Below are positions 4,662 through 16,396 of a stretch of 21,204 nt of DNA, piece by piece. Made by a program: the position numbers and the translations under genes. The notes under the pieces are model-generated. The model made no database searches and was not told the DNA's origin. It saw only the letters and a list, made by a program, of their open reading frames with translations. Origin of the DNA: a virus; the IMG/VR virus record IMGVR_UViG_3300045970_000604, positions 1 to 21,204 of that record, one strand, 5' to 3'. Within the stretch, counting starts at the first letter, position 1, and each line of letters begins with the position of its first letter.

Positions 4662-5282
4662 ATGGGCAAATTCATTGATCTAACAGGTAAGCAGTATGGT
4701 AATTACTTTGTTATTAGTAAGACTGACGAAAAAGTAGGAGGCTTTTACTTTTGGAATTGTAGGTGCACCTGTGGTACAGAAAAGAAAGTGTTGGGTAATG
4801 CTATACGCTATGGCAAGGGTAAAGGGTGTAAAGCGTGTGCTGATAAGGCACTAAGAACCCATGGTTTAAGTAACTCTAAGCTATATAGCGTATGGGCCTC
4901 AATGAAAAGTAGATGTACTAATACCACGCATCATGCCTATAAGGATTATGGAGCTAGAGGTATTACAGTTTGTAAGGAGTGGTTGAGTTTTGAAAAGTTT
5001 TATGATTGGGCAATGTCAAGTTGTTATATAGAAGGTAAGTCTATTGACCGTGTTGATAATAACCTTGGGTATTCCCCCAATAACTGTAAGTGGGCGGGGT
5101 GGTTGGAACAGAATAATAATAGGAGAAATACCCGCAGATTACCAGACGGTAGACTTGCTTCCGAAGTGTATTCAAAAAACGGAATAAGTATAGGAGCATT
5201 TAACGCTAGGTTGCGTATGGGGTGGGATAGTTATAAAGCAGCTACTTTTCCAATAAAAAAGAAAACTAAGAAGGTGATTTAA
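4662..5282 (+). CDS. HNH-type homing endonuclease-like protein with N-terminal zinc ribbon
   Basis: A 206-residue protein. An N-terminal zinc ribbon has C35-x-C37-G and C56-x2-C59. The central nuclease-family block reads HGLSNSKLYSVWASMKSRC, then YKDYGARGI, VCKEW and F-x-x-W, and SIDRVDNN before N-x-C-x-W. This is the widespread phage and bacterial family whose members are usually annotated as HNH endonucleases. The C-terminal 50 residues are basic and may bind DNA. GGAGAG lies at 4650-4655, seven bases before the ATG. It sits alone between head and portal genes and carries its own -10 box, as expected of a mobile homing gene. It is closely related in sequence to the protein encoded at 12568. 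Confidence 0.88.
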   Translation: MGKFIDLTGKQYGNYFVISKTDEKVGGFYFWNCRCTCGTEKKVLGNAIRYGKGKGCKACADKALRTHGLSNSKLYSVWASMKSRCTNTTHHAYKDYGARGITVCKEWLSFEKFYDWAMSSCYIEGKSIDRVDNNLGYSPNNCKWAGWLEQNNNRRNTRRLPDGRLASEVYSKNGISIGAFNARLRMGWDSYKAATFPIKKKTKKVI

Positions 5283-5395: not shown

Positions 5396-6825
5396 TAGAT
5401 CATTTGGGTAATGGAATAGACACTTCTAGGTTTACCTTCATTGGGGACAGTTTGAATGGTAGCGGGGGATTTGCCAATGGTGGCAATCTCGTTCAGTTTC
5501 CACGTGAATCTGATGCCAAGTTTCTTAAAAGAAAAGAATTGGCGTGGTACGTTAACCATTTAAAACCTGCTTGTTCACGTTTTGTTGGTTACTTATCCAA
5601 GAAGCCTCCAACTAGAGAAATATCGCACCCATTACTAGAAGCTTTTGCTGCTGATTGTGATTGGAAAGGTAATAGCCTTGATATTTTCATGGCTAATTTC
5701 CAAATTGAATGCAAGGCGCGGGGTTGTGGTTTGCTTCTAGTAGAAATGCCAAGCTTTCAACCTGCAAACCTAGAACAACAATTAGTACAGAGGTTCTTTC
5801 CCTACCTTGTAAATTTACCTGTTGAGTCTATCCGCAGGTATGCCCTAAATCCCATGGGGTTACTAGACGTTATTGAAATTAGTACAACCATGATGGTTGA
5901 TGAAAAGCTACAGCAAGTAATACGTGGTTGGGATGCTGATAGTTGGTGGGTAGTTCTCAATGGTGCAATTATAGAAGGTGGTGACCACGGTTTAGGGCAA
6001 TGCCCTGTACTTGTATTCAGTGAGGGTGACACATTCCCGTATGTAGGTGACTTTAGCCAGATTGCAGACATTGGCAAACGCCTTTACAACATGCATAGTG
6101 AGTTAGACGAATTAGCCCGTAGTCAGGCTTTCTCTATTCTCACGTATCAAATTCCAGTAGAACAACTAGGGCAAGTTGATCCTTCTGCATTGGCAGAGGC
6201 TGTTGGTACAAACAACATGCTTATCTACTCAGGACAGAATAAGCCTGATTTCTCTACACCTGAAACAGGCCCAACGGATTTCTATTTAAAGGCTATAGAA
6301 GCCTTAGAAGCCAATATTAAGGATATTGCCTTAACCATTGACTTAGGAAAGACCACAGGTAGTGGCCCTGAGTCTGGTATAGCTTTAACTATTCGTTTCC
6401 AAGGTTTGAATGCTGCTCTATCTTCATTTGCTAGAAAGTTTGAAGATTTAGAAAGGCGTATGTTTGATGTAGCGTCTAAGTGGTTAGGTGTTCAGAACAC
6501 TACCAAAATATCTTACCCAAAGAGCTTTGAGTTATCAGACCTTACAACAGAACTGAATACGCTAACGTCATACACTGCGGCTAATTTCCCTGTTGAGATT
6601 ATAAAAGCTAAGCAAAAGCAGATTGTATCTTTAGACTTTAGCAACTTAGAAGGTGAAGATTTACAACCCTTGTTAGATGCTATTGATGCTCAAGATGCAG
6701 AAACCCCGTTAATTGAATCGCGCCTTGCAGTGCTAGAAGCAGCTAATCAACCTGTAGATATGCAACCTCCTAATGTAGCAAGTAATGACACGGCTATGCC
6801 AATGAACATGAATGGGGGTGCATGA
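5392..6825 (+). CDS. Portal protein
   Basis: A 477-residue protein that forms the dodecameric ring through which DNA enters and leaves the head. The N-terminal part contains KELAWYVNHLKPACSRFVGY, a typical portal region in which a chain is tested for position in the ring. Next come SKKPP and a clip/wing region with W-rich strands (VIRGWDADSWWVVLNG). The stem-like stretch includes SELDELARSQAFSILT, and the C-terminal half is helical (ALEANIKDIALTIDL and later). The length and segment order fit portal proteins of the DUF4055-like group. The identity is also supported by its neighbours, since no other gene in the cluster could be portal. Its start overlaps a mini-ORF, and its stop overlaps the next ATG. 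Confidence 0.9.
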   Translation: MIDHLGNGIDTSRFTFIGDSLNGSGGFANGGNLVQFPRESDAKFLKRKELAWYVNHLKPACSRFVGYLSKKPPTREISHPLLEAFAADCDWKGNSLDIFMANFQIECKARGCGLLLVEMPSFQPANLEQQLVQRFFPYLVNLPVESIRRYALNPMGLLDVIEISTTMMVDEKLQQVIRGWDADSWWVVLNGAIIEGGDHGLGQCPVLVFSEGDTFPYVGDFSQIADIGKRLYNMHSELDELARSQAFSILTYQIPVEQLGQVDPSALAEAVGTNNMLIYSGQNKPDFSTPETGPTDFYLKAIEALEANIKDIALTIDLGKTTGSGPESGIALTIRFQGLNAALSSFARKFEDLERRMFDVASKWLGVQNTTKISYPKSFELSDLTTELNTLTSYTAANFPVEIIKAKQKQIVSLDFSNLEGEDLQPLLDAIDAQDAETPLIESRLAVLEAANQPVDMQPPNVASNDTAMPMNMNGGA

Positions 6826-7349
6826 TGGTAGCGGCTGTAATAGACCTAAGCATTGAACAAGTTAAGAACTATTTAGCAGAGTACTTTGATTTAAACGCTA
6901 AAGGTGAATTCATTTGGAAAAAGTCCCCTTCAGCAAGGGTTGTTGTAGGTAACGTTGCGGGGGTTATGAGAAGGGGTTATAGGGTATTGACTATTAGAGG
7001 CAAGAAGTATCCTGCACACAGATTAGTGTGGTTGGCACATAACGGGAGCTATCCGCTTTCTTTTATAGATCACTGCAACGGTATTAAGGACGATAACCGT
7101 ATTGAAAATCTACGGGATGTTTCTAACGCAGTGAATATGCAAAATCGTCAAGGTAGGGCGAATAGTAATACAACCTCTGGTGTTCTTGGGGTTTATTGGG
7201 GTAAGAACGTCAATAAGTGGATTGCAACCATCAAGGTTAATTACAAGAAGATTCATTTAGGGTGCTTCAAGCTTTTGGAACATGCTGTAGAAGCCCGTAA
7301 AGCTGCTGAAAATAAGTATTTCAGCTTACCTTTAGTTGTGGGGGTTTGA
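6822..7349 (+). CDS. HNH endonuclease with C-terminal AP2 domain
   Basis: A 175-residue protein with an N-terminal HNH_3-type nuclease. The histidine-arginine pair AHRLVW lies at residues 65-70, the second strand FIDHCNG at 81-87, and the final DDNRIENLR with asparagine at 90-98. A DNA-binding AP2 domain follows at about 119-167, with GVLGVYWGKNVNKW and a helix HAVEARKAAENKYF. This domain order is typical of phage homing endonucleases. The start overlaps the portal stop (ATGA) and is preceded by GGGGG at 6814-6818, so it is coupled to portal translation. It differs in family from the other two endonucleases in this window, so it arrived independently. The nuclease residues look intact. Confidence 0.92.
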   Translation: MMVAAVIDLSIEQVKNYLAEYFDLNAKGEFIWKKSPSARVVVGNVAGVMRRGYRVLTIRGKKYPAHRLVWLAHNGSYPLSFIDHCNGIKDDNRIENLRDVSNAVNMQNRQGRANSNTTSGVLGVYWGKNVNKWIATIKVNYKKIHLGCFKLLEHAVEARKAAENKYFSLPLVVGV

Positions 7350-7350
7350 T

Positions 7351-7719
7351 ATGGCAGCGGCAATGATTAATTTGGAGTTGGAAGCGGGCGCAACCTTTAC
7401 CCATGAATTTCAATGGATGCAACAAGACGGTACTACCCCTGTAGATTTAACGGGGGTAACTGCTCGTAGTCAATGGCGTACTTCAATAGATGACCTAACA
7501 GTACAGGAGGAATTAACCACTGAGAACGGTAAGATTTATATAACTCCTTTACTTGGAAAGGTGGTGATCCATCTAACTGCACTCCAAACAAGTGCTTTAG
7601 CTTTAACGTCATTTGTCTATGATATTGAGTTAGTGTATCCAGTAAATCTAGCGGGGGAAGTTGTTGTTTATCGTTTTGTAAAAGGTAAGGTTAAGGTAAG
7701 CAAAGAGGTAACTAGATAA
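7351..7719 (+). CDS. Small beta-rich fibre-associated protein (Ig-like or BppU-N-like)
   Basis: A 122-residue protein starting at ATG 7351, chosen because GTGGGGG lies six bases upstream, whereas the in-frame GTG at 7336 lies inside the preceding gene. Its strands follow a familiar phage pattern: GATFTHEFQW, then a DGTTPVDLTG turn, ARSQWR, and near the end SFVYDIELVYP and VKGKVKVS. Such proteins sit just before collagen-like fibre genes in many phages and resemble the N-terminal domain of baseplate upper proteins. The exact role is unknown, and an adaptor joining fibre to particle is my inference. Its last base overlaps the next start (TAATG). Confidence 0.8.
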   Translation: MAAAMINLELEAGATFTHEFQWMQQDGTTPVDLTGVTARSQWRTSIDDLTVQEELTTENGKIYITPLLGKVVIHLTALQTSALALTSFVYDIELVYPVNLAGEVVVYRFVKGKVKVSKEVTR

Positions 7720-8813
7720 TGACTGATACCACAATCATTACCGTAGAAACACTTCCCCCGACTATTCTTGTTTCCAATTCAGGTACAGCAGGGGCAGATG
7801 GTAAATCTGCTTATCAAGTTGCCGTTACTAATGGCTTTACTGGTACAGAGTCTGAATGGTTATCATCTTTACACGGTGGGGCAAAAGGTGACAAGGGAGA
7901 CACAGGCGCAACAGGTGCTGACGGTGCACAAGGCATTCAAGGTATCCAAGGAATTAAGGGAGACAAAGGCGATAAGGGGGATACAGGAGCCACAGGAAGT
8001 GCAGGGGCTACAGGTTCCCAAGGAATACAAGGAATTCAGGGCGTAAAGGGTGATAAAGGCGATACAGGTAGTACAGGAGCTACAGGTAGTGCAGGTGCAG
8101 CAGGTACTAATGGTAAGTCTGCTTATGAATTAGCTGTATTAGCAGGATTCTCAGGTAATAACGCAGCATGGTTAGCTTCTCTTGTTGGTGCTACAGGAGC
8201 AACGGGGGCTACAGGTGCTGCGGGAACTAACGGTACAAATGGTGCAGCAGGAGCAACGGGGGCTACAGGAGCCAAGGGAGATAAAGGAGATACGGGAGAC
8301 TCTGCTTATCAAGCTGCTTTAACAAATGGTTTTGTAGGTAGTGAATCTGCATGGTTAGCAAGTCTTGTTGGTGCTACAGGTGCTACGGGAGCCACAGGCG
8401 CAACAGGTGCAACAGGCGCAGCAGGTAGTAACGGAACCAATGGTACGAATGGTTCAGCAGGTGCTGCTGCCACTATATCTATAGGCACTGTAACGTCATT
8501 AGCCGCAGGGTCTACCCCAACTATTAGCAATACAGGCAGTTCTAGTGCTGCTGTATTTGCTTTTGGTATTCCCGCAGGTGCAACGGGTGCAACGGGTGCA
8601 GCAGGTGCAACGGGTGCAACGGGTGCAGCAGGTGCAACGGGTGCAGCAGGATATTCAACCTTAGCAGGGGCCACAGATGTTGTTATTACTAGCCCTGCAA
8701 ACAATGACGTTCTTACGTATGAAACGTCTAGTTCCAAATGGAAAAACAAACCTGCTACAGGTGGTGGTGGTAGTGGGGGCTTTGAACAAACCTTTTTGAT
8801 GATGGGTGCTTAA
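7719..8813 (+). CDS. Collagen-like tail fibre protein
   Basis: A 364-residue protein dominated by Gly-X-Y triplets at about residues 52-130, 157-193, 218-250 and 285-311. They contain GDKGD, GATGATG and GIQGIQG runs that would form trimeric collagen-like rods. Three copies of a non-collagen block (SAYQVAVTNGFTGTESEWLSSL and relatives) lie at about 30-51, 134-155 and 195-216, each before a rod segment. These blocks are common before collagen rods in phages and may nucleate trimers. A beta-rich block (TISIGTVTSLAAGSTP) at about 252-286 separates the last two rods. The C-terminus ends in a glycine-rich linker and FEQTFLMMGA. A 27-bp perfect tandem repeat underlies residues 287-310. Host binding is likely shared with downstream genes. 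Confidence 0.92.
   Translation: MTDTTIITVETLPPTILVSNSGTAGADGKSAYQVAVTNGFTGTESEWLSSLHGGAKGDKGDTGATGADGAQGIQGIQGIKGDKGDKGDTGATGSAGATGSQGIQGIQGVKGDKGDTGSTGATGSAGAAGTNGKSAYELAVLAGFSGNNAAWLASLVGATGATGATGAAGTNGTNGAAGATGATGAKGDKGDTGDSAYQAALTNGFVGSESAWLASLVGATGATGATGATGATGAAGSNGTNGTNGSAGAAATISIGTVTSLAAGSTPTISNTGSSSAAVFAFGIPAGATGATGAAGATGATGAAGATGAAGYSTLAGATDVVITSPANNDVLTYETSSSKWKNKPATGGGGSGGFEQTFLMMGA
8577..8648 (+). repeat. 27-bp perfect tandem repeat inside the collagen-like gene
   Basis: The unit begins GGTGCAACGGGTGCAACGGG and ends TGCAGCA. It occurs perfectly at 8577-8603 and 8604-8630, followed by an 18-bp partial unit at 8631-8648. It encodes GATGATGAA. Elsewhere in the gene the same peptide uses varied codons, so this block looks like a recent expansion. 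Confidence 0.9.
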
Positions 8814-8814
8814 C

Positions 8815-9141
8815 ATGACTAATGCTTATAAGGTGCTTGGACAAAGCAACCCTGCTGCTACTACGCTAACTTCACTTTATACCGTGGGGGCTTCTACATC
8901 TGCTGTAGGTAGCACTCTCTGTATTTGTAACCAAGGGTTATCTACTACCTTTCGTGTTGCTGTACGTCCTGCGGGGGCTGCTATAGACCCCAAGCATTAC
9001 ATTGTGTATGACGCAACTATTGATGCTAATGATACGAAGTTTCTAACGATTGGAGCAACCTTAGCTACTACTGATGTTGTGTCTGTGTACGCAGGTACAG
9101 CTAACGTTGCATTCAATCTGTTTGGAACGGAGCTAACCTAA
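8815..9141 (+). CDS. Small jelly-roll-like fibre or receptor-binding accessory protein
   Basis: A 108-residue protein. Start 8815 is preferred to GTG 8806 because GATGGG lies at 8801-8806, eight bases upstream. It has a family-typical opening (AYKVLGQSNPAATTLTSLYT) and later RVAVRPAGA, KHYIVYD and VVSVYAGT, which suit short beta strands. Proteins of this pattern are common next to collagen-like fibres in phages and appear to be trimeric beta-sandwich tips or caps. I know no proved function. Its stop overlaps the next start by one base (TAATG), so four fibre genes form one coupled set. Confidence 0.8.
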   Translation: MTNAYKVLGQSNPAATTLTSLYTVGASTSAVGSTLCICNQGLSTTFRVAVRPAGAAIDPKHYIVYDATIDANDTKFLTIGATLATTDVVSVYAGTANVAFNLFGTELT

Positions 9142-11693
9142 TGTCTTTCAATTCCGTTAAGGGGGTTGGGTTAGCAAGCAAGACATTAAAGGCTAATACT
9201 GCTTCTCCTACTACCTCATGGGTACGTGATAGCTCATGGATAGCATTACCTACGCTATTAACCTCTGACAACAAGTTTGTTGGGGTTCATAACGTCTATG
9301 CAGATGGTGGGAATTACTTAGCCTTATCTGCTGCGGGTAACTACACAGTAGATTGGGGTGATGGTACTGCTACTGAAAACATTGCTTCAGGTGTACAAGC
9401 CAATCACTTATACGATTACACAGCAGCAGGATTAAACAATTCTAATGCTCCTGTTATCTTGACAGACTCAGGTGATGTAATAGGGCGTACTGCCCATGGT
9501 AAGAACAATGGTGATGTAGTCAGGTTCTATAACATTGCTTCTACCACTGGCTTAACAGAAGGCTACGCTTACTACGTTATAAATGCGGCTGCTGATACCT
9601 TCCAAGTATCCTTAACGGTGGGGGGTTCTGCTGTAGCACTAACCACAAATGGTACAGCTACGTTACTACCTTACAAGCAAGCCTTAGTAACCGTAACCAT
9701 GCAAGGTGGGCAGACATTCACTAACCTGAACCTGCATCTAAAGCATACGGCTACAGGTCTTAATGCCTATACCTCTGGCTTTGTAGATATTGCTATAGCG
9801 GGGGCTTCTCTTACCACTTGTTATATAGCAGGACAAACTAACGGTACTACCCAAGTAATCAACTTTAATAATCTTGAAAGAGCAAATATCGTTGCGTCTG
9901 CTCTAACAAGTGTGGCTTGTGACTTCTACAAGTGCGTAAATTTACAAAACATTGTAGATATAGCTGTAAGCACTTCTAGCAACGTCAATTTCAATTTAAC
10001 ATTCAATGGTTGTTACAACCTAAAGAGCATACCTCTAATAAATACTATTAAGGTTACAAACTTCAATGGCACATTTACAGGATGCTATAGCTTAACCTCT
10101 ATACCGTTCTTAGACACTTCAGCAGCAACTGACATGTCTAGCATGTTTCAGAACTGCTTTAGCCTAAAGACTATACCGCTATTTAATACGAGTGCAGTTA
10201 CAGCAGCAACCTCTATGTTTTCTAGCTGCTACTCTCTTGTATCTATACCCCCGTTAAATCTAACGGCTTGTACAAACTATACGTCTATGTTTGCTTCTTG
10301 TAGAAGCCTTACTTCTATAAGCTTGATAAGCATGAATACAACGGGGTCTAGTATTAACTGTACTTCTATGTTTAATGGGTGTGCTGCTCTTATAACTATT
10401 CCACTACTGAATACTTCTAAAGTTACCAATGTATCCAGTATGTTTAGTGGGTGTTCTACACTTACATCTATACCATTGCTTAACACTTCATTAGTAACTA
10501 ACTTTTCTTCAATGTTTGCAAGTTGTTTTGAATTGGTAACTATTCCGCTATTAGATACCCATACGGGAACCAATTTTTCAATGATGTTTAGTGCGTGTTT
10601 TAGTCTTAAGGAAGTCCCTGCATTAAACACTTCAGCAGGTCTTACTTTTACTTCTATGTTCAATAGCTGTGTATCGTTAAAGACTATCCCACTGCTAGAT
10701 ACACATGCAGGTACAGCCTTTGATACGATGTTTCAAACGTGTTCAGCGTTAGAAACACTCCCACAATTAAATACAGGGGCGGGGCTTGCTTTTACAGCAA
10801 TGTTTGACTCTTGCTATAACCTGAAAGAAGTTCCTTTACTAGATACCCATTCTGGTACTAACTTTTCCTCAATGTTCATAACCTGCTTGGCACTTAAGAC
10901 GATACCACTATTAAATACAGCAGCAGGTACTAACTTTGCCAATATGTTTAATGGTGATATTAGTCTTAACTCAGTACCCGCACTAAATACAGCAGGGGGT
11001 ACAAGTAGTTCTAGCTTTACCAATCCGTTTTTTGGTTGCACTAGCCTAGCTTCTGCACCTTTGGCGGGAACTAAATACACCATTTCTTATGCTTCTCTAA
11101 AGCTAGGAAAGACTGCCCTTGAAAACATATTTACGGGGCTAGGTTTAGGAACAAGTCAGACCATTACTATATCTGGTAACTATGGGGCAGCTAATCCTGT
11201 AGCTATTACAGGCTGTAATGCAACAGGCCCAACTAAAGTAATTACTATGTCTAACACTACGGGCATTAACGTAGGTGACCAAGTAACAGGTACGGGTACG
11301 CCTATTACTACAGGTATTACAGCAGTAACTATAACTTCTACTACCTTTACACCACAAATAGGGGACTATGCTTTTTCTAATGGTGACATGATTTCATTTA
11401 TGACTTCTGCACCTACTGGATTATCAGTAGATAAAATATATTACGTAGTAAATGCGGGGCAGTACTCCCACGGATTATCATTAACATTGGGGGGAACTGC
11501 TTTAACGTGGACTGCTAGTGGTTCTACTTTTACTATTAGATGTATCTGTAAAGTAGTTTCTATAGTAACCAATACAAGCGTTACGTTAGACAGGTCTATA
11601 GGTAGCTATGCTGTAATTAGCAGTGGCACACTTACATTTAGAGCTTTAAATACATCACTAGCCCTATTAAAGGGTTGGACTTTAGTCGGTTAA
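9141..11693 (+). CDS. BspA-type leucine-rich-repeat fibre protein with PKD-like domain
   Basis: An 850-residue protein. A PKD-like fold lies at about residues 65-95 (GNYTVDWGDGT and HLYDYT), apparently continuing at KQALVTVTMQ after an inserted block at 97-176. From about residue 288 to 653 lie fifteen repeats of roughly 24 residues with the plan F-x-x-C-x-x-L-x-x-I-P-L-L-N-T-S-x-x-T-N-x-x-S-M. These are BspA/DUF285-type leucine-rich repeats. The fifth is longer by three residues. The C-terminal part (about 741-800) repeats the inserted block (NGD, TGL, YYVVNA, SLTLGG). No signal peptide is seen. Such repeats bind proteins or surface polymers in bacteria and eukaryotes. Here a receptor-binding or adhesion role on the virion is likely, because it follows three fibre genes. 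Confidence 0.88.
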   Translation: MSFNSVKGVGLASKTLKANTASPTTSWVRDSSWIALPTLLTSDNKFVGVHNVYADGGNYLALSAAGNYTVDWGDGTATENIASGVQANHLYDYTAAGLNNSNAPVILTDSGDVIGRTAHGKNNGDVVRFYNIASTTGLTEGYAYYVINAAADTFQVSLTVGGSAVALTTNGTATLLPYKQALVTVTMQGGQTFTNLNLHLKHTATGLNAYTSGFVDIAIAGASLTTCYIAGQTNGTTQVINFNNLERANIVASALTSVACDFYKCVNLQNIVDIAVSTSSNVNFNLTFNGCYNLKSIPLINTIKVTNFNGTFTGCYSLTSIPFLDTSAATDMSSMFQNCFSLKTIPLFNTSAVTAATSMFSSCYSLVSIPPLNLTACTNYTSMFASCRSLTSISLISMNTTGSSINCTSMFNGCAALITIPLLNTSKVTNVSSMFSGCSTLTSIPLLNTSLVTNFSSMFASCFELVTIPLLDTHTGTNFSMMFSACFSLKEVPALNTSAGLTFTSMFNSCVSLKTIPLLDTHAGTAFDTMFQTCSALETLPQLNTGAGLAFTAMFDSCYNLKEVPLLDTHSGTNFSSMFITCLALKTIPLLNTAAGTNFANMFNGDISLNSVPALNTAGGTSSSSFTNPFFGCTSLASAPLAGTKYTISYASLKLGKTALENIFTGLGLGTSQTITISGNYGAANPVAITGCNATGPTKVITMSNTTGINVGDQVTGTGTPITTGITAVTITSTTFTPQIGDYAFSNGDMISFMTSAPTGLSVDKIYYVVNAGQYSHGLSLTLGGTALTWTASGSTFTIRCICKVVSIVTNTSVTLDRSIGSYAVISSGTLTFRALNTSLALLKGWTLVG
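10002..11100 (+). repeat. Fifteen 72-bp leucine-rich-repeat units
   Basis: The units of about 72 bp encode the F-x-x-C...IPLLNTS...SM repeats of the 850-residue protein. They are diverged at DNA level (unlike the collagen tandem), so this is an old array. One unit at about 10290-10370 is nine bases longer. Confidence 0.8.
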
Positions 11694-12362: not shown

Positions 12363-12542
12363 ATGGCACTTGCGGTTATTCAAAAGGTAGAAATTGGATA
12401 CAACAAGTATAAATATAAGTGCTTAGCCTCTACTAAAGATCGTGTGTGGGTTTCAAAGTTGTTTGATAAGGAAGAAGAAGCAATTGAAGCAGCAAGAGAA
12501 TACGAAAGTAAAGCTAGTAGAACGGATCAGTTTAAGGTATAA
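12363..12542 (+). CDS. 59-aa AP2-like DNA-binding protein
   Basis: ATG 12363 follows the previous stop by one base. The product has strands around YKYKCLASTKDRVWVSKLF and then a helix EEEAIEAAREYESK, the sheet-plus-helix order of AP2-type DNA-binding domains, and resembles the AP2 domain of the endonuclease at 6822. It has no nuclease part. It sits directly before another endonuclease gene, so it may be a relic or an accessory of one. The -10 box of the next gene overlaps its stop codon. The AP2 assignment rests on pattern only, because the typical tryptophan and glycines are incompletely kept. Confidence 0.65.
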   Translation: MALAVIQKVEIGYNKYKYKCLASTKDRVWVSKLFDKEEEAIEAAREYESKASRTDQFKV

Positions 12543-12543: not shown

Positions 12544-12567
12544 AGGCTCCTTTAAATGGGGGTTATT

Positions 12568-13182
12568 ATGGGCAAGTCAGTAGATTTAACAGGGTACAAG
12601 TACGGTAGTAATGAGGTTATCTCAAGATATACAGGTGATAAAGAAGGGGATGGACACTTAAGGTACTTAGTAAGATGCTCTTGCGGTTATGAAAGGCTAC
12701 TAAGGTCAAACATAATCAAAAGAGGCAAATCTACTCATTGTATGTACTGCCACAATAGAAAACCGCGTAAGCATGGGTTGTCAAAGACTAAGATTATGGG
12801 AGTATGGAACACAATGTTATCAAGGTGCTTTAACTCAAATCATAAAAACTATGATACCTATGGTGGTGCGGGTATTACAGTTTGTGATGAGTGGAAAAAA
12901 CCTGCTAGTTTTTTTGAATGGGCATTAGCCAATGGTTATCAGGAAGGGTTGCAGATAGATAGATTTCCTAATAGGCATGGTAACTACGAGCCTTCTAACT
13001 GTAGATGGGTTACTTGTACTGAGAATGCTAGAAATAAAGATTGTGTAACACCTATTGAAACCGTTAAGCAGATCAAATCTTTAAAAGGAATAATGTCTGC
13101 TGCTAAGTGTGCGAAACAGTTTAGTGTATCTAGTGGGGTTGTGTATCACATTTGGCGTAATGAAACTTTTAAGGAGATTTGA
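12568..13182 (+). CDS. HNH-type homing endonuclease-like protein with zinc ribbon and C-terminal HTH
   Basis: A 204-residue protein. Start 12568 (preceded by GGGGG at 12558-12562) is favoured over ATG 12556, since it aligns with the first endonuclease (MGKSVDLTG versus MGKFIDLTG). A zinc ribbon has C37-x-C39-G and C58-x2-C61. The nuclease-family block includes KHGLSKTKIMGVWNTMLSRC, then YDTYGGAGITVCDEW and GLQIDRFPN with YEPSNCRW. Unlike its relative, it has a C-terminal helix-turn-helix (IKSLKGIMSAAKCAKQFSVS, residues 169-188, continuing to HIW) typical of homing enzymes that contact a target half-site. It interrupts the tail-completion and connector genes. The following gene has its own AAGGAG overlapping the end. 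Confidence 0.88.
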   Translation: MGKSVDLTGYKYGSNEVISRYTGDKEGDGHLRYLVRCSCGYERLLRSNIIKRGKSTHCMYCHNRKPRKHGLSKTKIMGVWNTMLSRCFNSNHKNYDTYGGAGITVCDEWKKPASFFEWALANGYQEGLQIDRFPNRHGNYEPSNCRWVTCTENARNKDCVTPIETVKQIKSLKGIMSAAKCAKQFSVSSGVVYHIWRNETFKEI

Positions 13183-13493: not shown

Positions 13494-13673
13494 ATGGCTA
13501 TAGCAATTGGACAGAAGTACGGCAAGCTAACAGTAATTGCTGCCTTGAAAGAAATTAGCCCTTTCTTATGGCGTTTTAAATGTGACTGTGGGCTATTGAC
13601 AGTGCTACCTAGCCCACCTGTAGAAAAGGGTGTAGTTAAGTGCTGTGCAGAATGCCAAAAGGTGACCCCATGA
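13494..13673 (+). CDS. 59-aa solo zinc ribbon, relic of a homing endonuclease
   Basis: ATG 13494 follows the connector stop by two bases. The product opens with GQKYGKLTVIAALKEI and contains C30-x-C32-G and C51-x2-C54. The spacing from the second to the third cysteine is 19 residues, identical to the endonucleases at 4662 (37 to 56) and 12568 (39 to 58). The nuclease and helix-turn-helix domains are missing, and the gene ends with a TGA that overlaps the next ATG (ATGA). It may be a decayed endonuclease or a retained DNA- or RNA-binding module. Both ends are tidy and all four cysteines remain, so it is probably still translated. Confidence 0.75.
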   Translation: MAIAIGQKYGKLTVIAALKEISPFLWRFKCDCGLLTVLPSPPVEKGVVKCCAECQKVTP

Positions 13674-14056
13674 GCTTCAATGCAGTCTTAACCGATATGA
13701 AGGCTAAGCTAGCCCTTATACCCAATATTAAAACTGTCGGGGTGGGGCTAGAATCTAATTTAAGCCCTGCTGATTATCCTTGTGTACGCCTTGTTCCCCA
13801 ACAGTTCAGCAAAGGGGATCAGAACTACTCGTACCGTACATGCAACCTGCTTGTGTATTTCGGTTTGCCCTTGGTAGAAGGTGATGTATCACTAGAGTCT
13901 ATCTATGACCAACTTCTAACTTTAGAAGAAGAAGTTATTGTTGCTACAAGGCGGGGGGATGGTTACAAGAGCATCTACCAGAAAACTCTAACCTCTGGTA
14001 ATGAGGTTACTAACTACAGGTTATTCTGTGTGGTGCTAGAAGTCAGTTTTGAATGA
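13670..14056 (+). CDS. Putative tail terminator protein
   Basis: A 128-residue protein. Start 13670 is chosen because it overlaps the previous stop as ATGA; the longer frame from 13640 lies inside the zinc-ribbon gene. It begins MSFNAVLTDMKAKLALIPNI, then VGVGLESNLSPADYPCVRLVP, with beta strands that follow (CNLLVYFG and RLFCVVLEVSF). Short proteins beginning with a helix and then a YP-x-V strand pattern are typical tail terminators, which cap the tail tube and accept the head. The assignment is by pattern and order, so it is moderately sure. Confidence 0.7.
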   Translation: MSFNAVLTDMKAKLALIPNIKTVGVGLESNLSPADYPCVRLVPQQFSKGDQNYSYRTCNLLVYFGLPLVEGDVSLESIYDQLLTLEEEVIVATRRGDGYKSIYQKTLTSGNEVTNYRLFCVVLEVSFE

Positions 14057-14069
14057 AGGAGTAGCTATC

Positions 14070-14111
14070 ATGGCTTGTAAAGGTAAGGGTAAGAAACCCC
14101 CAAAGAAGTAA
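14070..14111 (+). CDS. 13-residue lysine-rich micro-ORF
   Basis: ATG 14070 has a near-perfect GAAGGAG at 14055-14061, eight bases upstream, and the frame ends at TAA 14109-14111, just before a terminator. The product is MACKGKGKKPPKK: one cysteine, seven lysines, two prolines. A strong ribosome-binding site before a start with nothing else to translate is the reason for calling it. I know no such peptide. It might be a real microprotein or a site that loads ribosomes before termination. Confidence 0.45.
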   Translation: MACKGKGKKPPKK

Positions 14112-14115
14112 AAGA

Positions 14116-14145
14116 AAAGCCCCTTAGCGGGGCTTTGTCTTTTGT
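14116..14145. terminator. Bidirectional rho-independent terminator
   Basis: AAAGCCCC (14116-14123) pairs with GGGGCTTT (14129-14136) around a five-base loop. GTCTTTTG follows on the plus strand, and an A-rich stretch lies on the other side, so the minus strand also gets a T-rich tail. It separates the convergent rightward tail-terminator transcript and the leftward H-NS-like gene. Confidence 0.88.
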
Positions 14146-14156
14146 AACCATGTTAG

Positions 14157-14465
14157 TTACTTTATCAAGTAGCTTTCAAGTGGCTTCTTAGGGTCTATCC
14201 ACTTAGGTGCACGTCCACGTCCTGTCCAAGTCTCTCTAGCATTGGCAGGATTGATGTACTTGGGTGCAGCAGGTTTGCGGGTGAACTTCTTTTGGGGGGC
14301 TACTAACCCCAAATCTTGCGGGGTAATGTTAAAGGTTTGAATATCCTTTATCAGTCTAGCAATAACTTCTGCTTTCTGACCTTCCTTAGCCTTTTCATAA
14401 GCTGCTGTAGCGGCTGCTGCTGCTTTGGCTAGGGCTTCAAGATCAACTGTTTTATCACTTGCCAT
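14157..14465 (-). CDS. H-NS-family DNA-binding protein (phage-encoded)
   Basis: A 102-residue protein on the opposite strand from all structural genes. The C-terminal domain carries the core motif of H-NS-type proteins, KYINPANARETWTGRGRAPK (residues 69-88) then W, with the GRGR loop at 82-85 that inserts into the minor groove of AT-rich DNA. The N-terminal half is alanine-rich and helical (residues 8-48) and would dimerise. ATG 14465 is preferred, since TAAGGAG lies at 14480-14474, eight bases upstream. H-NS proteins silence AT-rich foreign DNA; a phage copy could silence host or phage genes, or relieve host H-NS by forming mixed dimers. It has its own promoter and a shared terminator, so it is independently expressed. 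Confidence 0.9.
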   Translation of the reverse strand: MASDKTVDLEALAKAAAAATAAYEKAKEGQKAEVIARLIKDIQTFNITPQDLGLVAPQKKFTRKPAAPKYINPANARETWTGRGRAPKWIDPKKPLESYLIK

Positions 14466-14505
14466 GGTATCCACTCCTTAGTATGAAATTGGTACTACGG
14501 GGGTA

Positions 14506-14534
14506 ACTCTATCCTTACTTTAAAACATTGTCAA
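14506..14534 (-). promoter_or_regulatory. Sigma70-type promoter of the H-NS-like gene
   Basis: On the minus strand a consensus TTGACA (14534-14529) is followed after exactly 17 bp by TAGAGT (14511-14506), four of six to TATAAT. The Shine-Dalgarno of the H-NS-like gene begins about 26 bases further. On the plus strand TTGTCA (14528-14533) overlaps the same site and could drive the rightward scaffold transcript, though no good -10 follows. Confidence 0.75.
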
Positions 14535-14621: not shown

Positions 14622-15320
14622 ATGGATATTTCCAAATATAAAGAAGCACTTGGTACAGATTTTGAGGCAGTACAGACTTACGTAAATGCCTTAATCGCAC
14701 AAAAAGACGAAGCTAGGGCTGAGTCTATCTCAGGGCGCAAGACCCTGAAAGCAGAAGTAGAAAATCTGCGTAAGGTAAAAGAAGTACTGTTTGACAAGTT
14801 GGGTTTAGATGACGATGCAGACCTTGATTCAGTGTCTATACCTACCAAGGGTCAAGAGTTAGAAGCAAACAAGCAAGCTGAAAGACGCTTGAAGAAGTTG
14901 GAAACAGAATTAGCAGCAGAACGTGAAGCCCGTACTGCATTAGATGGAAAGTATAAAGGCACGTTGACTGAAGCTGCACTTGCTAGAGCAATTAGCAAGC
15001 ACGAATTTGTAGATAATGATCTTGTCATGGAATATGTAAAAGGCAGGATCAAGTTTGAAGGTGATGAATTAGTTTATGTAGATGGGGATAAAACCCTAAG
15101 TGTAGAAGATGGTGTAGGGCTAGTTGCGAAAACCAAGCCCCACCTGTTGAAGGCACAAGGTATAGGTGGTTCAGGGTACAACCCTACGGCTACACAAGGT
15201 AAGACGAAAGCCCTAAAGGATATGAGTCTTACGGAACAGATGAACTTGGCTAAGACTAATAAGCCTTTGTATGACCAACTGAAGGAAAGCACTACGCCCC
15301 AAGTTGCACAAGCAGCATAA
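14622..15320 (+). CDS. Capsid scaffold protein
   Basis: A 232-residue protein directly before the major capsid gene, the usual place for a scaffold. A short N-terminal helix (MDISKYKEALG) leads to a long, highly charged coiled coil at about residues 25-105 (KKLETELAAEREART and neighbours), typical of scaffolds. The end (about 175-232) is flexible, with GGSGYNP and a polar stretch. It contains no protease motif. The ribosome-binding site is weak (AGAGGT at 14605-14610, 11 bases before the ATG), and a tiny ORF (ATG 14599 to TAA 14616, MARGH) lies just upstream. It begins the rightward transcript after the H-NS-like gene. Confidence 0.85.
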   Translation: MDISKYKEALGTDFEAVQTYVNALIAQKDEARAESISGRKTLKAEVENLRKVKEVLFDKLGLDDDADLDSVSIPTKGQELEANKQAERRLKKLETELAAEREARTALDGKYKGTLTEAALARAISKHEFVDNDLVMEYVKGRIKFEGDELVYVDGDKTLSVEDGVGLVAKTKPHLLKAQGIGGSGYNPTATQGKTKALKDMSLTEQMNLAKTNKPLYDQLKESTTPQVAQAA

Positions 15321-15412: not shown

Positions 15413-16396
15413 ATGACTCAAACTGTACTCTCGGACATTATTGTCCCTGAAGTTTTCGCTGACTACGTTACCGTCAAAACTGCTGAACTGTCTGCCCTGT
15501 ACCAATCAGGTGTTGCTGTTTCTGATCCTGTTATTGCTGCCCGTGCAGCAGGTGGTGGTGCATTCGTTAATCTGCCTTTCTTCAATGACCTTACGGGTGA
15601 TGACCAAGTAATGTCTGATGCAGGTGAAATGGACATTAACGCAATCACTGCACTTGATGACGTAGCTGTTAAGTGCTTCCGTGAGAATGCATGGGGTTCT
15701 ACTGATCTGGTTCGTAGCCTTGCAGGTGCTGACCCTATCCAATCGCTTGCCAATCGTGTTGCTGATTATTGGGCGCGTAAGGAACAGAAAGCACTTATCA
15801 ATACGCTTGAAGGTGTATTTGCTACTGCTCTGGCTTCTACCCACGTGCTTAATTTAGGTGCTACTAGCGGTGGTTCTATTCTGACTGCTGATGTTGTACT
15901 TGATGCTAAGCAAAAGCTTGGTGACAGTGGTTCATCTATCGTTGCTATCGCAATGCACTCTGTTACTTTCACTGGCTTGCAAAAGGCTAACCTGATTGCA
16001 ACTATCCCTGCTTCTCAGGGCAATGTTGGTTTCAGTACCTACCTTGGCTACCGTGTGATTATTGATGATGCTTGCCCTGTTGTTAGCATCCCTGATGATC
16101 CTGCACATGCACTAGATGCTGATCCTCACCACAACACATACGCTTCGTACCTGTTTGCTGCGGGTGCTGTTGCTCATGTGGAAGTTGCACAGCCAAATGC
16201 AATTGAGTTTGCACGTTACGCTACCAAGAATCAGGACGTTATGATTAGTCGTTCTGCATATATCTCCCATGTGCGTGGAGTGAAGTGGAATGTTACAACG
16301 GTTAATCCTACTAATGCTCAGCTTGCTACTGGTTCCAATTGGGCAAAGGTCTATGCGGATAAGCAAATCCGTGTGGTCAAAGTAATTACCAAGTGA
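15413..16396 (+). CDS. Major capsid protein (HK97-like fold expected)
   Basis: A 327-residue protein, the structural shell subunit. It opens with DIIVPEVFADYVTVKTAELS then ALYQSGVAV, and contains GGGAFVNLPFFNDLTGDDQV and the middle stretch ADPIQSLANRVADYWARKEQ followed by LINTLEGVFA, all characteristic of a common proteobacterial-phage coat family. The segment ending in VKWNVTTVNPTNAQLATG fits the C-terminal part. It follows the scaffold gene, has a strong AAGGAA ribosome-binding site, and uses mainly CGT for arginine and CTG/CTT for leucine, unlike neighbours that use AGA, TTA and CTA. This suggests selection for high expression. No cleaved N-terminal delta domain is apparent, in keeping with a separate scaffold gene. 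Confidence 0.93.
   Translation: MTQTVLSDIIVPEVFADYVTVKTAELSALYQSGVAVSDPVIAARAAGGGAFVNLPFFNDLTGDDQVMSDAGEMDINAITALDDVAVKCFRENAWGSTDLVRSLAGADPIQSLANRVADYWARKEQKALINTLEGVFATALASTHVLNLGATSGGSILTADVVLDAKQKLGDSGSSIVAIAMHSVTFTGLQKANLIATIPASQGNVGFSTYLGYRVIIDDACPVVSIPDDPAHALDADPHHNTYASYLFAAGAVAHVEVAQPNAIEFARYATKNQDVMISRSAYISHVRGVKWNVTTVNPTNAQLATGSNWAKVYADKQIRVVKVITK

Follow-up and report, generated by a model that had tools for sequence, protein, structure and literature searches.

Why would a tailed phage carry a gene for an H-NS-like protein inside its virion module, on the strand opposite to that of its neighbours? We addressed this question for a gene at positions 14157-14465 (minus strand) of the virus record IMGVR_UViG_3300045970_000604, the whole of which (21,204 bp) constitutes the window analysed here. 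The reading that we favour, and consider reasonably likely, is that the gene belongs to a moron unit which codes for a complete short-form H-NS protein, is transcribed separately from its surroundings and silences AT-rich DNA.

Gene order and transcription signals around the H-NS gene

Nearly all genes of the window lie on the plus strand, and the sole clear minus-strand gene is the H-NS gene, with its ATG at 14465 and its stop at 14157. The window encodes small and large terminase, head morphogenesis, portal, collagen-like and repeat-rich proteins, tail completion, scaffold, an SPP1 gp13-type major capsid, the major tail protein, a tail assembly chaperone and the start of a tape measure gene, whilst no integrase, repressor or early genes were seen within this 21-kb fragment. 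Comparison of the window DNA with phage records gave no near match. Between the portal and tail completion genes we observed a 364-aa collagen-like protein (7719-8813) and an 850-aa protein with DUF285/PARCEL repeats (9141-11693), which are possibly host-contact or decoration proteins.

The H-NS gene faces the gp17-like gene, the last of the connector block (13670-14056, plus strand; 51% identity to positions 769-1149 of L002, the closest relative found, and 34% to L030). Between the two lies a bidirectional intrinsic terminator (14116-14136) that scores on both strands, and the 61 nt around it fold strongly, at -20.3 kcal/mol (z -4.0). On its other side the gene diverges from the head scaffolding gene (14622-15320, plus strand; phrog_206, E 1.7e-15; 52% to L002), which is followed by the SPP1 gp13-like major capsid gene (15413-16396, plus strand; PF20036, E 4.4e-15; phrog_247). 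Gene coordinates and strands, together with the terminator, therefore agree with the original prediction, which had placed the gene convergent with the upstream genes across a bidirectional terminator and divergent from the scaffold gene.

On the minus strand, a ribosome-binding site (AAGGAG, 14474-14479) is located 8 nt before the ATG, and a predicted sigma-70-like promoter (TTGACA-17-TAGAGT, 14506-14534) matches the consensus at 10 of 12 positions. The end coordinate of the feature under study, 14534, takes in this promoter as well as the gene. Of the host-type promoter that had been claimed for the gene, the consensus -35 element (14534-14529), the 17-nt spacer and the correct placement all stand, but the -10 element TAGAGT (14511-14506) is weak, agreeing with the consensus at only four of six positions. 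Promoter-like sites are overall no commoner in the window than expected by chance (8 found versus 8.5 expected), so the case for the H-NS promoter rests on its position: counting both strands, the window has five sites of at least 10/12, of which this one alone sits directly 5' of a start codon, at a distance of 41 nt. The rough chance of such a placement is 0.6% (five sites over 42,408 strand positions, multiplied by about 50 suitable positions), and random 156-nt leaders reached the score of the H-NS promoter in 1.5% of cases when taken from pieces of the window and in 2.6% when shuffled. No promoter-like site of at least 10/12 exists on the plus strand anywhere in the window, which suggests that the virion genes probably rely on other signals or on read-through. 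A phage-specific promoter motif common to the intergenic regions of the window was likewise not found.

The anatomy of this locus is directly established, and we posit that promoter-like site, gene and terminator would form a self-contained unit at the transcription-unit border that separates the connector block from the scaffold-capsid genes. In this model the sigma-70 form of host RNA polymerase would transcribe the unit independently of the virion genes, in a lysogen and/or early after entry. Being built as a separable unit, the H-NS gene can be expressed differently from the virion genes that surround it.

The encoded H-NS protein

The gene encodes a protein of 102 aa (P0001), and its predicted membership of the H-NS family is confirmed by a match to the H-NS C-terminal domain family PF00816 far above the cut-off (42.2 bits against 25.6). 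P0001 also matches phrog_10171 (E 1.5e-18, residues 7-101), a family without an assigned function; since all 37 virus-encoded H-NS proteins of our alignment match this family, phrog_10171 can be read as phage H-NS. The protein comprises a helix (residues 9-45), a linker and a DNA-binding domain (64-102) that contains TGRGRAPKW, and it can be aligned over its full length, N-terminal helix included, with the 36 other virus-encoded H-NS proteins. W80, G82, R83, G84, P87 and W89 are invariant across the alignment, and Y70 and R85 are nearly so. The GRGR minor-groove motif is intact, as had been proposed, within a loop (TWTGRGRAPKW) that fits the pattern W-[ST]-G-[RQ]-G-R-x-P. This Q/RGR motif is an AT-hook-like minor-groove element of H-NS, which favours TpA steps (PMC6936261).

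An AlphaFold model computed with the 37-protein alignment (mean pLDDT 89.1) shows one long helix, a linker and a small C-terminal domain, in keeping with a predicted N-terminal oligomerisation region joined by a flexible linker; the alignment pairs the helix with the N-terminal helices of the 36 other proteins. Structural comparison (Foldseek/VIA) matched the fold of the C-terminal domain to Bv3F and to the DNA-binding domain of Salmonella H-NS. Bv3F (PDB 2l92) superimposed on the P0001 domain with an rmsd of 1.5 A over 36 residues, at 42% identity and a Z of 4.0. The very small size of the domain keeps this Z low in absolute terms, and the fold is in accord with the sequence match. Like P0001, Bv3F of Burkholderia vietnamiensis has an RGR hook and a DNA-binding domain, but it is a cellular protein and its match to P0001 covers the C-terminal domain only. 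By sequence and model, P0001 has both H-NS domains and is a whole protein. Its scores of 21.8 and 19.1 bits lie below the NCBIfam equivalog cut-offs for E. coli H-NS and StpA (about 200 bits), and its sequence places it as a short-form (Bv3F-like) member of the family and not as an ortholog of either.

Among 369 sampled genomes of one class, the best matches to P0001 showed 38-41% identity over 80-87 residues, and the best plasmid matches (39-50% identity) covered part of the protein. Peptide-pattern searches of viral and bacterial collections for close relatives found none, the protein tree grouped P0001 with no host, its branch being long and unresolved, and PADLOC returned no match for P0001 or six small ORFs nearby. 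Three contigs came from a scan with a narrower H-NS motif, and the product of L223, the one read through, is longer and of a different type. When the phage collection was searched by tblastn, the result was only Acinetobacter chromosomal hns in mislabelled records, with no true phage match: CAKLQH020000023.1 and CAKLQF020000026.1 are labelled Acinetobacter phage MD-2021a and have bacterial chromosomal genes inside (argH, hemC/D, hns, type II secretion, trpE and tRNAs, according to the annotation of the first record), and hns there is not a phage gene.

With these features P0001 would oligomerise via its N-terminal helix, whilst its RGR loop would enter the minor groove of AT-rich, TpA-rich DNA; by adding to host H-NS, or partnering with it, the protein may then silence AT-rich DNA and repress transcription. 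Silencing is the simplest reading of a protein equipped both for oligomerising and for AT-rich minor-groove binding. The original prediction had also allowed for an anti-silencing decoy. In such a reading P0001 would join host H-NS filaments or compete for AT-rich sites and so relieve the silencing of phage or host genes. Phages do counter H-NS or MvaT, as seen for T7 (gp5.5, Ocr), T4 (Arn) and LUZ24 (Mip), and truncated H-NS relatives such as H-NST oppose H-NS. However, the antagonists known so far either bear no relation to H-NS or consist of a single domain, and the single-domain architecture of H-NST-type proteins was not found in P0001, which has a helix and a DNA-binding domain. We therefore regard anti-silencing as unlikely, since the presence of both domains speaks for a silencer rather than for an anti-silencing fragment; of the roles that had been predicted, it is the decoy that is weakened.

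Insertion between gp17 and the scaffold gene

We compared the locus with that of L002, in which tail completion, orf13186, gp17, scaffold, capsid, major tail and chaperone genes occur in the same order as in the window, at 50-62% identity. In L002, 74 bp separate gp17 from the scaffold gene and no H-NS gene is present, so that an empty site is observed directly. Across 63 related virus records (27 identified by capsid, and 36 more by tail protein, scaffold or Manatee Spring phage), many of which are fragments, PF00816 was found in none. The empty site, together with this absence from the relatives, supports the view that the H-NS gene is an insertion, and the proposal of a moron within the head genes is thereby upheld on comparative sequence grounds.

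The assignment of the gene to a phage could in principle be an artefact, with bacterial DNA joined to a phage contig during assembly. The gene comes from one record only, and mislabelling exists, as in the Acinetobacter 'phage' with hns among chromosomal genes; against this, both flanks follow the gene order of L002 and the window contains no other bacterial gene. We consider such a chimera very improbable.

The insertion coincides with a joint at which related phages differ. In the window and in L002 the portal-to-gp17 block runs in the same direction as the scaffold gene, whereas the portal gene of L030 and of L151-L153 is directly divergent from the scaffold-capsid genes, and L030 has its entire portal-to-gp17 block flipped with respect to the scaffold. 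These changes of orientation mark the gp17/scaffold joint as both a rearrangement point and a transcription-unit boundary; it is a site where an additional gene does little harm.

The H-NS gene has a GC content of 0.456 and a GC3 of 0.369, against 0.24-0.43 in its neighbours. The deviant base composition that is frequent in morons, but not required, is therefore absent, and a GC3 within the phage range suggests that the insertion is probably not recent and that the gene has been kept long enough to blend in.

The surroundings of the gene also raise the possibility that it is a passenger, a host gene acquired where HNH-type mobile genes abound and without a present role. Three HNH endonuclease genes (4662-5282, 6822-7349 and 12556-13182) lie in the same virion module, and one of them, together with two small ORFs, is located just upstream, between tail completion and gp17, where L002 lacks these extra genes. 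The occurrence of H-NS in no sampled relative would fit such a history. A passenger is harder to reconcile with an intact reading frame, with DNA-binding residues that are all kept, with a codon GC like that of the phage and with the signals around the gene, and we think this explanation improbable. Two 59-aa reading frames in this part of the window (12363-12542 and 13494-13673) resemble pieces of HNH genes by eye and have no family match.

Possible targets, parallels in other phages and a neighbouring micro-ORF

If P0001 is indeed a silencer, its targets may lie in the host (defence or accessory genes), in competing elements or in the phage itself. Were it to act, one small protein could switch AT-rich host and phage genes, defence genes included. 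One version of this, which we judge possible but rather unlikely, is that P0001 acts mainly on the phage chromosome, either keeping AT-rich regions silent in lysogeny or modulating late transcription in the neighbourhood of the insert. The prophage CGP3 is kept silent by CgpS, an Lsr2 relative that it encodes itself, and the window has a candidate target: its AT- and TpA-richest stretch (100-375) contains seven copies of GGTTATA/TATAACC within 200 bp (150-350), compared with seven further copies over the other 21 kb. This array could be regulatory, but it may equally well be no more than an origin or a packaging site, and the fragment contains no sign of lysogeny. We also observed that the array adjoins the small terminase gene and a reading frame of 103 aa whose C/H pattern resembles that of a zinc finger.

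Phage-encoded H-NS has been known since 2011 from phage EPV1 of Candidatus Accumulibacter, for which a role in silencing the defences of the host was suggested (Skennerton et al. 2011, PMC3097231). Like P0001, the EPV1 protein is full-length with both domains, and both are metagenomic finds. However, EPV1 is an integrase-bearing podovirus with H-NS among its presumed early genes, whereas the window derives from an SPP1-capsid-type phage in which H-NS is found between connector and scaffold genes and not in the early cohort of a temperate phage. Within this head/connector module it occupies the strand opposite to that of its neighbours, and it has a promoter-like site and a terminator of its own. 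Silencers supplied by a mobile element are also known from plasmids, which carry the H-NS relatives Sfh, Pmr and Acr2 (PMC7074111); these resemble P0001 in being mobile-element H-NS proteins and differ in their carrier, a plasmid instead of a phage. The gene is thus a well-placed new example, a moron in a head module, and it extends the set of phages known to carry a whole bacterial silencer to a tailed phage with an SPP1-like capsid.

The location inside the head genes had been singled out as notable, a view that is tempered by parallels in a sample of virus contigs with an H-NS motif. Among the matches listed, H-NS lies at the 3' end of an N4-type virion RNA polymerase gene in five contigs (L044, L062, L078, L098 and L124), mostly in convergent orientation, and these H-NS genes form one supported clade in the tree. 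The closest parallel among the matches listed is L111, where a minus-strand H-NS gene (1345-1659) is placed between a plus-strand gene and the plus-strand portal gene; its sister in the tree, L049, has H-NS (4-318) next to portal. Among the same listed matches, L134 and L148 have H-NS near, and divergent from, the large terminase gene. As in the window, these genes adjoin or lie near virion or packaging genes, mostly on the opposite strand, but the phages are unrelated, the neighbours different and the protein identity about 20-37%. It is conceivable, although we hold it only as a tentative idea, that unrelated phages repeatedly set a full-length H-NS gene opposite virion or packaging genes as a host-controlled silencer that is off under antisense late transcription. 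If true, the phage would silence rivals or host defences ahead of virion production but no longer while it is under way. The similar siting of H-NS in several unrelated phages points to a testable rule on when phages need this protein.

A 13-aa micro-ORF (MACKGKGKKPPKK; 14070-14111, plus strand) that has a good ribosome site separates gp17 from the terminator and stands outside the H-NS unit. Scanning IMG/VR for MACKGK-x-K returned 48 contigs (L225-L272), in all of which (48/48) the match fell in a tiny reading frame of 8-25 codons, whilst a control scan with reordered codons (MAKCGK-x-K) gave no match and a literature search found no paper containing the peptide string. The frames represent 35 distinct peptides, 24 of which have a ribosome-site-like motif, and 83% of residues after position 8 are K, G or R. 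Many of their identifiable neighbours are terminase, portal, head and head-tail joining genes. Judged by these sequence features, the MACKGK-x-K frame looks like a real and widespread phage micro-protein, and it was this micro-ORF, rather than the H-NS gene, that we found the most surprising element of the locus.
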